From positions 1 to 64,000 of the forward strand of contig NZ_CP101154.1 in assembly GCF_024298905.1 (NCBI RefSeq): a stretch of 64,000 nt of DNA, written 5' to 3'. The notes beneath the pieces are model-generated. The model did no database searches. It saw only the letters and a program-made list of their open reading frames with translations, and was not told where the DNA came from. Positions 11,159 through 15,022 of this stretch are shown piece by piece; position 1 is the first letter of the stretch, and every line of letters starts with the position of its first letter. The DNA is from Natronomonas marina. Lineage in GTDB: Archaea; Halobacteriota; Halobacteria; Halobacteriales; Haloarculaceae. A program made the translations under genes and the position numbers.

Positions 11159-11267
11159 AACGGCCGAAAACGGCTCGAAACGTCCCGAAAACGATTGAAT
11201 TCGCGGCAACCGTCGTCCCGGTTGAAGGTGGTCGGGCCTCTCTTCACGCCCGGAGGAGAACTCACCG

Positions 11268-11465
11268 ATGTCGACCACCGACCACGACGCCGACCGGCCC
11301 CTGCGACGGGCGGACCGACCGCCGCTGTGTGCGAGCCTGACCACCGTCGAGGACGGCCTGCTCCAGTGCACGCTGCACCCGCCGGACCCCGACGAGGCGG
11401 CGGCGACGACCCGCTGGCTGACCGCCGAGCAGGGCTCGTTCGTGGACGCCGGCTCGATGCGGTGA
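11268..11465 (+). CDS. Small conserved haloarchaeal protein
   Basis: 65 residues from ATG 11268, preceded by a clear Shine-Dalgarno GGAGGAG at 11252-11258, unusual in this window where many genes look leaderless. The recognisable core is LTTVEDGLLQCTLHPPDPDEAAATTRWLTAEQGSFVDA, a soluble fold seen in many haloarchaeal genomes as a small protein of unknown function (DUF7511-like, name from memory). It ends SMR. Nothing in the context fixes a role. Confidence 0.65.
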   Translation: MSTTDHDADRPLRRADRPPLCASLTTVEDGLLQCTLHPPDPDEAAATTRWLTAEQGSFVDAGSMR

Positions 11466-11510
11466 GGGGCGGACACAACGCTTTTGTTCCCGAGCGGCAA
11501 TCGGTCGCAC

Positions 11511-11588
11511 ATGGCACCCGAACCCGCCACGGACGGCGTCGCTTCCGACCGCCCCGTCGCTGTCGGGTTCGGCTTTTTCTCGCCGTAG
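11511..11588 (+). CDS. Candidate Phe-rich leader peptide of pheST
   Basis: A 25-codon frame starting at ATG 11511 and ending TAG 11586-11588; its last residues read VAVGFGFFSP, three Phe within four codons. A TATA-like CTTTTG at 11481-11486 lies about 26 bases upstream, so the frame could be translated from a leaderless mRNA. The stop codon abuts a large stem-loop 94 bases before pheS. The layout resembles the bacterial pheM leader of pheST, but such attenuation is not established in haloarchaea. The peptide is inferred, not proven. Confidence 0.35.
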   Translation: MAPEPATDGVASDRPVAVGFGFFSP

Positions 11589-11637
11589 ACGGGGTGGACC
11601 CGGCCGACCCCGAGCGGTCGGCCGGAGAAACCCCGTC
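11588..11637 (+). promoter_or_regulatory. Strong two-part stem-loop in the pheST leader
   Basis: The inner stem is a perfect 10 bp: CCGGCCGACC (11600-11609) with GGTCGGCCGG (11616-11625) around loop CCGAGC. The outer stem is a perfect 8 bp: GACGGGGT (11588-11595) with ACCCCGTC (11630-11637), separated from the inner stem by a 4x4 internal loop. The last base of the upstream 25-codon frame's stop codon is the first base of the stem, so a ribosome stalled on the Phe codons would sit against the structure. No T run follows, so it is not a simple terminator. Confidence 0.5.
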
Positions 11638-11681
11638 GTCGAGTCGGAACCGCTAACAGCCAGCCGCCTACACATCCGCCA

Positions 11682-13193
11682 ATGAGACTGCCCGACACGC
11701 AGGTCGCGCTGCTTCGAGCCGCCAGCGCGACCGAGACGAAGACGATCGCACAGCTCGCCGAGGAACTCGAGGAAGACCCCGCCGCCGTCACCGGAGCCGC
11801 CTTCGAACTCGAATCGGCGGGCCTGCTGGAGGTCGACGAACACGTCGCCGAGGAACTCTCGCTGACCGAGGAGGGCGAACGCTACCTCGAGGACGGCCTG
11901 CCGGAGCGCCGCCTCTACGAGGCCGCCATCGAGGCCGGCGCCGACGAGGAACCCGTCGAGATGGGCCGTCTCGTCGGTGCCTCGGGCCTCGAGGGCGGGG
12001 CGGTCGACATCGCGCTGACGAACTTCGCCCGGAAGGGTCTCGGCGATATCGACGGCGGCGAGGTCGTCGCCGACCCCGACGCGGGCGGCGACGACCCCGA
12101 AGTCGAGGCGCTGTCGGCTGTCGCCGACGGCTCTGCGGGCTACCACGACGCGGGCGTCCTCGAGCGCCTGGAGTCCCGCGGACTCGTCGAGCGGACCGAG
12201 ACGACGGTCCGGTCGGTGACGCTGTCCGACGACGGCGTCACCGCGCTGATGGAGGGCGTCGAGGTCGCAGAGACGGTCGGCGCCGTCACGCCGGAGTTGC
12301 TCACCTCCGGCGAGTGGGCCGACGTCGAGTTCGCCGAGTACAACGTCGAGGCCGACGCCGAGACCATCGACGGCGGCAAGAAGCACATCCTCCGACAGAC
12401 CGCCAACCGCGTCAAGGACGTCCTCGTCGGCATGGGCTTTTCGGAGATGGAGGGCCCCCACGCGGACGCGGACTTCTGGATAAACGACTGTCTGTTCATG
12501 CCGCAGGACCACCCGGCGCGGACCCACTGGGACCGCTTCGCGCTGGACGTGCCGGCGATGGAGGGAGAGGACCTGCCGGAGGGACTCGCCGACCGCGTCG
12601 AGGACGCCCACCGCAACGGCGTCGGCGAGGACGGCGACGGCTACCACTCGCCGTGGAGCGAGGAGTTCGCCCGCGCGATCGCGCTGCGGGGCCACACCAC
12701 GTCGCTGTCGATGCGGTACCTCTCGGGTGAGGCCGTCGGCGAACTGGAACCGCCCCAGCGGTACTTCAGCGTCGAGAAGGTCTACCGCAACGACACGCTG
12801 GACCCGACCCACCTGCTGGAGTTCTTCCAGATCGAGGGGTGGGTGATGGCCGAGGAGCTGTCTGTCCGGGATTTGATGGGCACGTTCACCGAGTTCTACG
12901 AGCAGTTCGGCATCACCGACCTCGAGTTCAAGCCGCACTACAACCCCTACACGGAGCCGAGTTTCGAGCTGTTCGGCAAGCATCCCGAGACGGGCGAACT
13001 CATCGAAATCGGCAACTCGGGCATCTTCCGCGAGGAGGTGCTCCGGCCGCTGGGCGTCGAGTGCGACGTGATGGCCTGGGGGCTGGCGCTCGAGCGACTG
13101 CTGATGCTGATGTACGGCTTCGAGGACATCCGGGACGTCCACGGGACGCTGTGTGACCTCGACCTCCTGCGGAACGTGGAGGTGGTGTACTGA
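11682..13193 (+). CDS. pheS: Phenylalanine--tRNA ligase alpha subunit
   Basis: Catalytic subunit of the (alpha-beta)2 class II synthetase that charges tRNA-Phe. 503 residues, the archaeal/eukaryotic-type length. The N terminus (to about 200) has winged-helix repeats (TIAQLAEELEEDPAAVTGAAFELESAGLLEV). The class II core follows: motif 1 around GKKHILRQTANRVKDVLVGMGF, motif 2 RYFSVEKVYRNDTLDPTHLLEFFQIEG and motif 3 VMAWGLALERLLML. Its TGA overlaps the pheT ATG by one base, so the pair is translationally coupled. A candidate leader peptide and stem lie upstream. Confidence 0.97.
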   Translation: MRLPDTQVALLRAASATETKTIAQLAEELEEDPAAVTGAAFELESAGLLEVDEHVAEELSLTEEGERYLEDGLPERRLYEAAIEAGADEEPVEMGRLVGASGLEGGAVDIALTNFARKGLGDIDGGEVVADPDAGGDDPEVEALSAVADGSAGYHDAGVLERLESRGLVERTETTVRSVTLSDDGVTALMEGVEVAETVGAVTPELLTSGEWADVEFAEYNVEADAETIDGGKKHILRQTANRVKDVLVGMGFSEMEGPHADADFWINDCLFMPQDHPARTHWDRFALDVPAMEGEDLPEGLADRVEDAHRNGVGEDGDGYHSPWSEEFARAIALRGHTTSLSMRYLSGEAVGELEPPQRYFSVEKVYRNDTLDPTHLLEFFQIEGWVMAEELSVRDLMGTFTEFYEQFGITDLEFKPHYNPYTEPSFELFGKHPETGELIEIGNSGIFREEVLRPLGVECDVMAWGLALERLLMLMYGFEDIRDVHGTLCDLDLLRNVEVVY

Positions 13194-15022
13194 TGCCCGT
13201 CGTCGACGTCGATCCCGACGAACTGCGGCGGCTCACCGGCCACGAGGAGAAGGACGACGAGGAACTGAAGTCGGACCTCTTCGCGCTCGGCCTGGAGTTC
13301 GAGGGCGAGACCGAGGACGGCGAGTTCGAACTGGAGTTCGCGCCCGACCGGCTGGACCGCCTCTCCGTCGAGGGCATCGCCCGCTCGCTGCGCTACCAGT
13401 ACGGCGCCGACCGCGGCGTCTACGTCCCGGACTGCAACGACGCCGAGTGGACCATCGAGGTCGAGGGGTCGGTCCCCGACGAGCGGCCCTACGTCACCGG
13501 CGCCGTCGTCCGGGGGCTGGACCTCGGGGAGGCGGAACTGGAGTCGCTCATCCAGTTGCAGGAGAAACTCCACGCGACGATGGGCCGCAAGCGCGCGAAG
13601 GGCGCCATCGGCGTCCACGACCTGGCGATGCTGAAGCCGGCCGGCGAGGACGGCGACAAGCGCATCGTCTACCGGGGCGTCGACCCCGACGGGGACACCT
13701 TCGTCCCGCTGGACGACGACGCCGAACGGACGCCCGCGGCGGTGCTCTCCGGGCACCCCATCGGGGACAAGTACGGCGACCTCGTCGCGGACCTGGACCG
13801 CTATCCGGCCATCTACGACGACATCGGCCTGTTCTCGTTCCCGCCGGTCATCAACGGCCGCCGGACGGAGGTCGAGGCCGGCTCCCGGGACCTGTTCGTC
13901 GAGATGACCGGCACCGACCAGTGGACCATCGACCGGATGCTCGCCATCGTCTGCTACGCCCTGGACGCCCGCGGCGGCCGAATCGAGGCGGTCGACGTCG
14001 AGTACGCCGACCGGACGCTCCGGCGGCCGGACCTCTCGACGGACACGAAGACGGTCGGCCACGACCGCATCGAGTCGACGCTCGGCATCGACGTCGCGGG
14101 CGAGGAGGTCGTCGACCTGCTGGAGCGGTCCGGGCTCGGGGTGACGACCGACGACGGCGCCGGCGGCACCGGCGGCACCCCTGCCGACGAGGTCGAACTG
14201 GAGGAGGTGCCCACCCGGACGACCGAGACTGCCTCCGTCGCGGGGACCGACGCCGACACGGACGCCGACACCGACACTGACGACGACGGCCTCACCTACG
14301 AGGTCGAGGTTCCGCCGTACCGCGTCGACGTGCTGCACCCGATGGACGTCGTCGACGACGTGGGCCGGGCCTACGGGTTCAACGACCTCGAACCGCGGTA
14401 CCCCGACGTCTCGACGGTGGGCGGTCGCCACGAAACGTCGCGGCTGGAGGACGCCGCCCGCGACGCGCTGGTCGGACTCGGCTTCGAGGACCTGCTGAAC
14501 TTCCACATGACGAGCGAGGCCGAACTGTTCGACCGGATGGGGCTGTCGCCGGACGACGATGCCGTCGGCGCCCGCGAGCCGCCGACCATCACTGGCCCCT
14601 ACAGCGAGGACTACACCGTCGTCCGGACGTGGGCGCTGCCGTCGCTCATGATGGTCCTGGAGAACAACACCCACCGCGCGTACCCGCAGGACCTCGCCGA
14701 GATCGGGCTGGTCGCCGCCGAGGACGACGACGAACCGACGCACGTCGCCGAGCACCGTTCGGTGGCCGGCGTCGTCGCGCGACACGACGCCTCCTACGAG
14801 GACGCGAAGGCACGCCTGCAGGCGCTGGCCCGCGCGTTCGACGCCGACCTGTCGACGCCGCCGACCGACCACCCCTCCTTCATCGACGGCCGGACCGCCG
14901 AGGTCGTCCTGGACGGCGAGTCGGTCGGGGTCGTCGGCGAGGTCCACCCACGCGTGCTGGTCGAACACGACCTGGAAGTGCCCGTGGCCGGCTTCGAGTT
15001 CCGGCTTGACGCGCTCCGGTAG
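13193..15022 (+). CDS. pheT: Phenylalanine--tRNA ligase beta subunit
   Basis: Partner of PheS, involved in tRNA binding and editing (B3/B4 domain). 609 residues from ATG 13193, overlapping the pheS stop by one base. Recognisable parts: the archaeal N terminus PVVDVDPDELRRLTG, B3/B4 with VFSFPP-like GLFSFPPVINGRRTEVE, the B5 segment (TLGIDVAGEEVVDLLERSGLG) and the C-terminal synthetase-like domain. B5 is interrupted by about 45 low-complexity residues (322-368, Gly/Thr then Asp/Thr repeats), longer than needed for the fold and probably a disordered halophilic insertion. Confidence 0.95.
   Translation: MPVVDVDPDELRRLTGHEEKDDEELKSDLFALGLEFEGETEDGEFELEFAPDRLDRLSVEGIARSLRYQYGADRGVYVPDCNDAEWTIEVEGSVPDERPYVTGAVVRGLDLGEAELESLIQLQEKLHATMGRKRAKGAIGVHDLAMLKPAGEDGDKRIVYRGVDPDGDTFVPLDDDAERTPAAVLSGHPIGDKYGDLVADLDRYPAIYDDIGLFSFPPVINGRRTEVEAGSRDLFVEMTGTDQWTIDRMLAIVCYALDARGGRIEAVDVEYADRTLRRPDLSTDTKTVGHDRIESTLGIDVAGEEVVDLLERSGLGVTTDDGAGGTGGTPADEVELEEVPTRTTETASVAGTDADTDADTDTDDDGLTYEVEVPPYRVDVLHPMDVVDDVGRAYGFNDLEPRYPDVSTVGGRHETSRLEDAARDALVGLGFEDLLNFHMTSEAELFDRMGLSPDDDAVGAREPPTITGPYSEDYTVVRTWALPSLMMVLENNTHRAYPQDLAEIGLVAAEDDDEPTHVAEHRSVAGVVARHDASYEDAKARLQALARAFDADLSTPPTDHPSFIDGRTAEVVLDGESVGVVGEVHPRVLVEHDLEVPVAGFEFRLDALR

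Follow-up and report, generated by a model that had tools for sequence, protein, structure and literature searches.

A Phe-rich leader frame and hairpin upstream of haloarchaeal pheST resemble a phenylalanine-supply sensor of the bacterial kind

Ribosome-mediated attenuation is a textbook mechanism of bacteria, and it requires that transcription and translation are coupled. The attenuator of the Escherichia coli pheST operon has the leader peptide pheM, and in Streptomyces auxiliary TrpRS genes are attenuated by means of a leader containing Trp codons. Synthetase genes can also be controlled by the charging state of tRNA through T-box riboswitches, which bind the tRNA directly and do not have a leader ORF. 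In Archaea, the evidence for transcription-translation coupling still consists mostly of interactions and imaging. Here, we describe a Phe-rich leader and a hairpin upstream of the pheST genes of Halobacteria which, by analogy, look like a built-in sensor of the Phe supply of the bacterial kind.

The window, by which we mean the whole stretch of DNA analysed (64,000 nucleotides of Natronomonas marina, contig NZ_CP101154.1, positions 1 to 64,000), contains a locus that is similar to the bacterial pheM system in that a short leader ORF ending in Phe codons, with RNA stems around it, is followed by pheS and pheT. It differs from that system in that the transcript is predicted to be leaderless, the first Phe codon lies within one of the stems (stem A), the other stem (stem B) starts at the stop codon, and neither a U-tract terminator nor a conserved antiterminator was found; homology between the two systems is not claimed. 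The features of the locus are as follows.

11473 to 11486, forward strand: putative promoter P1, a BRE/TATA-like element (acacaacgcttttg), supported by the TTTT-to-ATG spacing in relatives and by the transcription start site (TSS) in Haloferax volcanii.
11511 to 11588, forward strand: leader ORF with an ATG start, 25 codons (MAPEPATDGVASDRPVAVGFGFFSP) followed by the stop, from the ORF list and relatives.
11518 to 11526, forward strand: 5' arm of stem A (CCGAACCCG), leader codons 3-6, pairing with 11564-11572.
11564 to 11572, forward strand: 3' arm of stem A (CGGGTTCGG), comprising a Gly codon, the first Phe codon and the start of the next codon.
11568 to 11579, forward strand: leader Phe codons TTC (11568-11570), TTT (11574-11576) and TTC (11577-11579).
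11588 to 11595, forward strand: 5' arm of the outer helix of stem B (GACGGGGT), starting on the last base of the stop codon (G of TAG).
11596 to 11599, forward strand: 5' side of the internal loop of stem B, GGAC; GGA in 92 of 93 scored genomes.
11600 to 11625, forward strand: inner hairpin of stem B, CCGGCCGACC-ccgagc-GGTCGGCCGG, a 10-bp helix of CCGGCCGACC (11600-11609) with GGTCGGCCGG (11616-11625), from folding and covariation.
11626 to 11629, forward strand: 3' side of the internal loop of stem B, AGAA; GAAA or GAAC in all 93 scored genomes.
11630 to 11637, forward strand: 3' arm of the outer helix of stem B (ACCCCGTC), 8 bp with 11588-11595, from covariation.
11645 to 11657, forward strand: P2-like element (CGGAACCGCTAAC), BRE/TATA-like with a weak TATA, conserved near pheS.
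11682 to 13193, forward strand: pheS, phenylalanine-tRNA ligase alpha subunit (PF01409, E 6e-77).
13193 to 15022, forward strand: pheT, beta subunit, assigned from the ORF and its position only, without a family search.

The leader peptide ends in GFGFFSP before a TAG stop codon (11586-11588), the pheS ATG (11682) lies 44 nt past the end of stem B (11637), and the start of pheT overlaps the stop of pheS. A sequence-only reading of this DNA had proposed the 25-codon Phe-rich frame at 11511-11588 and a stem of 8 + 10 bp at 11588-11637 that opens on the last base of the stop codon, and both turned out to be exact. Its wording of an 18-bp stem was right about the two helices, but these do not form one continuous stem: they are arranged around a conserved purine internal loop.

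In a pilot set of 80 pheS loci, which were fetched as best matches and are biased towards these, about 70 had a short upstream frame with a Phe-rich end block such as GFGFFF, and most of these leaders were preceded by a GTTTTTG-like box before the ATG. For an unbiased sample, 145 genomes were drawn evenly from Halobacteria, other Archaea being outside the scope of the survey, and the 600 nt upstream of each pheS were searched for a frame that starts with ATG, spans 14-48 codons and contains a given residue three or more times within its last 12 codons. A Phe leader according to this rule was present in 112 of the 145 genomes, covering 49 of 58 genera and nine of ten families, and its length was mostly 24-30 codons. 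Under the same rule, none of the 145 genomes passed for Trp, Tyr, His, Met, Cys, Ile, Lys or Gln, a single one passed for Asn, and none passed for Phe on the reverse strand; the residues that are common in haloarchaeal frames passed in 19 (Asp), 5 (Glu) and 8 (Pro) genomes. The earlier claim that a terminal Phe cluster is unlikely to arise by chance is thus well supported, and the alignment with relatives that had been suggested as a check shows that they keep the frame, the Phe codons and the stem together (112/145), with changes in the stem that are compensatory; the first of the refuting conditions named there was thereby not fulfilled. The remaining 33 genomes, which include the other four sampled genomes of Natronomonas, fail the rule and the device must therefore be dispensable; by eye, some of them have degenerate leaders with two Phe.

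Regarding transcription, the sequence-only reading had noted a TATA-like box upstream of the leader ATG. Such a box is indeed present in P1, whose TTTT (11482-11485) is located 29 nt before the ATG. A TTTT at 29-30 nt before the leader ATG was found in 90 of the 112 leader genomes, as compared with 12 of 355 other ATGs having a TTTT at 22-32 nt upstream; sixteen leaders lack the TTTT, and most of these show another TATA-like box by eye. From this spacing, the leader ORF is predicted to be leaderless. For Haloferax volcanii, a dRNA-Seq study places a uORF of 26 aa (pI 5.9) within a pheS 5'-UTR of 150-250 nt; the TSS is upstream of the uORF, and Table 2 of that paper gives no additional TSS at pheS itself (Babski et al. 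2016, PMC4983044). The Haloferax leaders that we identified have 26 aa, a pI of 5.94 in several species, and are located about 210 nt before pheS. The reported mass of 2772 matches none of the Haloferax leaders examined, the nearest one (2792, pI 5.94) being 20 Da off. Judging from length, pI and position, the H. volcanii uORF very likely is the Phe leader; identity is not proven, and the masses differ. As far as the accessible part of that paper goes, the uORF occupies a single table row among uORFs and small-protein genes, without interpretation and without discussion of the Phe codons, their conservation, the stems or regulation (PMC4983044). The statement that the element has not been described for haloarchaea is therefore correct only in part: the uORF had already been listed, while a description of Phe attenuation was found neither there nor, for Archaea in general, in a literature search that left most subscription journals outside.

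Stem B of the window folds at -40.2 kcal/mol (z -4.4), and none of 200 shuffles folded as low. For the analysis of covariation, 62 distinct stems were divided into their outer arms, inner arms and loop; pairing was present in 89.4% of the cells, with 199 double changes (shuffles 76, slid versions at most 68) and a covariation of 0.673 versus 0.193, and all six inner pairs scored show double changes. The paired percentage leans upwards because pairing was rewarded in the search that placed the arms, which also applies to the slid control, and the firmer evidence is therefore the number and variety of the double changes. The arms have little fixed sequence. The loop counts given above likewise come from stems found by a search that itself favoured these loop sides; the GGA/GAA loop is consistent with three consecutive purine pairs, a reading taken from known internal-loop motifs and not from a test. 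It should be noted that the GGA/GAA(A) loop is nearly invariant throughout the class, beyond what pairing needs, and could be a protein-binding site. The possibility that stem B is a generic repeat or terminator was rejected, as the covariance model R1 scores 31 bits for the copy at pheS and 23 bits for the next match in the genome; in 59 relatives, strong matches were at pheS, and one weaker off-target match that was inspected corresponded to the start of a coding frame.

Stem A, which is a new addition to the earlier description, is a covarying helix within the frame, in which CCGAAYCCS (leader codons 3-6) pairs with SGGRTTCGG around the first Phe codon. Leaders with CCC as their fifth codon mostly have GGG as the Gly codon (35 cases), and those with TCC mostly have GGA (28 cases). 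With one genome per genus (44 genera), 366 of 396 cells were paired and 29 double changes were observed, and 2000 whole-arm shuffles reached at most 349 paired cells and 21 double changes. The middle of the leader peptide is free to vary (mean column identity 46%). The conserved parts of the peptide, Glu-Pro/Ser close to the N-terminus and Gly-Phe close to the C-terminus, are accounted for by the pairing of stem A. As a whole, the leader RNA of the window has a folding z of -3.2.

Two criteria of an attenuator are thus met, namely an upstream ORF rich in codons for the amino acid of the downstream gene (112/145), and conserved covarying stems (A and B) that, according to spacing and constrained folds, are placed to fold depending on the position of the ribosome. 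Two others are not. Stem B as an intrinsic terminator was rejected, since a TTTT within 45 nt from its GAAA, which would represent the U-tract, was present in 0 of 110 genomes, and no conserved antiterminator pairing of stem B with the Phe codons was found: its 5' arm shows only weak pairing to each of the last two codons (about 10%) and none to the Phe codons. In the absence of both a U-tract after stem B and a conserved alternative pairing there is no classical switch, so that the mechanism cannot simply copy that of bacterial pheM; the read-out differs from that of pheM and is not identified. A T-box riboswitch, which unlike the haloarchaeal leader has no leader ORF, was rejected too, as neither a T-box nor another plausible Rfam family was detected in 11200-11800 at E values up to 5; the three weak matches obtained did not come close to their gathering scores. 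We also rejected the idea that stem B masks the pheS start, the access being unchanged with the modelled ribosome position (p 0.17).

Based on these data, which support the interpretation given by the sequence-only reading, we consider it probable that the region is a cis-acting, ribosome-stalling sensor of Phe-tRNA that controls pheST, with the stalling, the regulation and its sign, and the read-out all being inferred in the absence of expression data under Phe limitation. P1 would produce a leaderless RNA starting at or near the leader ATG and running on into pheST. When Phe-tRNA is scarce, the ribosome would halt on the three to five terminal Phe codons. It would there melt stem A, as the first Phe codon is part of the 3' arm of this stem, and stem B would be left free to fold. 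A ribosome reaches about 12 nt beyond the first base of its A-site codon. Counted from the first base of the last Phe codon, the median distance to the start of the outer arm of stem B is 15 nt, which would place this arm immediately ahead of the ribosome front and keep stem B free during a stall; counted from the first base of the stop codon, the distance is mostly 0-9 nt. When Phe-tRNA is ample, the ribosome would reach the stop codon and its front would cover the 5' arm of stem B; therefore, stem B would report stalling. In constrained folds, a ribosome at the stop codon abolishes the 5' arm of stem B, and with a ribosome on the last Phe codon 66% stays paired; by construction, these folds agree with the geometry of the ribosome positions. 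The folding of stem B under scarce Phe-tRNA would raise pheST expression, and the likeliest read-out would be that, within the untranslated spacer, stem B shields the growing transcript from termination by a factor of the FttA type. Transcription-translation coupling in H. volcanii (PMC8576121) and termination by FttA (PMC11616081) have been reported, which makes this read-out possible without showing it.

The evidence on the Phe codons themselves bears on a first alternative, in which stem A and a U-rich CTTTTTC form an intrinsic terminator within the frame; RNA polymerase would be halted there except when stem A is opened by a ribosome, and the Phe codons would be a mere consequence of the U-tract. 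The conserved stem A directly precedes the T-rich block, a T-run of 5-6 is present in 50 of the 112 leaders, and TTT makes up 25% of the leader Phe codons (57/231) as compared with 4% in pheS (47/1132; p 2e-20, a value that overstates the independence of the data because codons were counted over related genomes). This enrichment could reflect slower decoding or U-richness, and we prefer neither. However, three to five Phe are kept in all 112 leaders, including the 54 in which the longest T-run is at most 3, U-rich non-Phe codons account for only 12 of the 151 interspersed codons, and TTC is the commonest leader Phe codon. Codon positions 1 and 2 of the block are almost fixed, and the variation at most third positions amounts to 0.9-1.4 bits; an exception is the first Phe codon, located in stem A, which is always TTC. 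As it also leaves stem B unexplained, we regard the terminator as very unlikely.

Nor do we find it at all probable that the frame is an ordinary uORF or microprotein gene, acting on pheS by reinitiation or through a peptide with a role of its own and without Phe sensing. Such a role would agree with its listing among uORFs and small-protein genes in the accessible part of Babski et al. (PMC4983044), and in one genome (G001) about 20 nt separate the stop from the likely start of pheS. The variable middle of the peptide and the lack of any matching Pfam family speak against it, as do the conserved Glu-Pro/Ser and Gly-Phe codons, for which stem A pairing is sufficient, and the fit between the leader amino acid and the downstream synthetase, Trp taking the place of Phe before TrpRS. 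It has also to be considered that stem B is an operator or a protein-binding hairpin, for instance for autoregulation by PheRS, with the ORF being secondary. Synthetase autoregulation is exemplified by the bacterial ThrRS, the near-invariance of the GGA/GAAA loop exceeds what pairing requires, and its 3' GAA resembles the anticodon of tRNA-Phe, although this is an impression only. This would leave the Phe codons, the spacing to the stop codon and stem A all unexplained, the little fixed sequence in the arms argues against a DNA operator, and Phe leaders without stem B exist in two genomes (G001 and G007), so that we deem this explanation most improbable.

The amino acid fit also rests on a second group of leaders. 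Accessory haloarchaeal TrpRS genes, on plasmids and in genomes, are preceded by short leader ORFs whose Trp codons occur in clusters (CWRW, PWRWW) with a surrounding stem, examples being MVSTSHANCWRWHAFREVDSIAV (23 aa) and MTTAPWRWWSPLSGADSPAVVVAAA. At 26 of 30 accessory TrpRS loci, a short frame upstream of the gene contains W-x-W or WW; other residues gave 0-5 of 30. These loci are similar to the accessory TrpRS genes of Streptomyces in having a Trp-codon leader and unlike them in that the latter are bacterial and terminator-based. For H. volcanii, a uORF of 23 aa upstream of a Trp-tRNA ligase is listed in the accessible part of the uORF study (PMC4983044). No Trp leader was found upstream of the window genome's own trpS1, and examination of the regions upstream of pheA, trpE and hisS revealed no such leaders.

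Taking both groups together, we propose tentatively, with slightly less than even confidence, that haloarchaea have a form of ribosome-position attenuation of synthetase genes that is common within the class and probably old (Phe before pheST, Trp before accessory TrpRS genes), with leaderless ORFs and a U-tract-independent read-out, possibly involving FttA, which would be the first amino-acid attenuation in Archaea. If true, leader peptides would serve as amino-acid sensors in a second domain of life as well. The presence of the leader in most sampled Halobacteria, together with the tractable Haloferax, would permit an in vivo test of archaeal coupling and of factor-dependent termination.

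The P2-like element is present in 121 of the 145 genomes, including 30 of the 33 without a leader, and is not recognisable in five leader-bearing genomes (G042, G074, G090, G001 and G007). By its sequence, CGGAACCGCTAAC is likely to be a second core promoter, P2, although no TSS was found there in the data accessible for H. volcanii. It may be a source of leader-independent transcripts, which is a point against control by the leader. In the genus of G001 and G007, the distance from the end of the Phe leader to pheS is 20-35 nt, and both stem B and the P2-like element are missing; the true pheS start of G001 probably precedes the matched start by about 17 nt. In the window, a 65-aa ORF (11268-11465) directly upstream of P1 contains a DUF7511 domain (PF24351, E 3e-14), and the first 50 residues of PheS (11682-11840) are matched by MarR-type winged-helix models (PF01047, E 7e-7).
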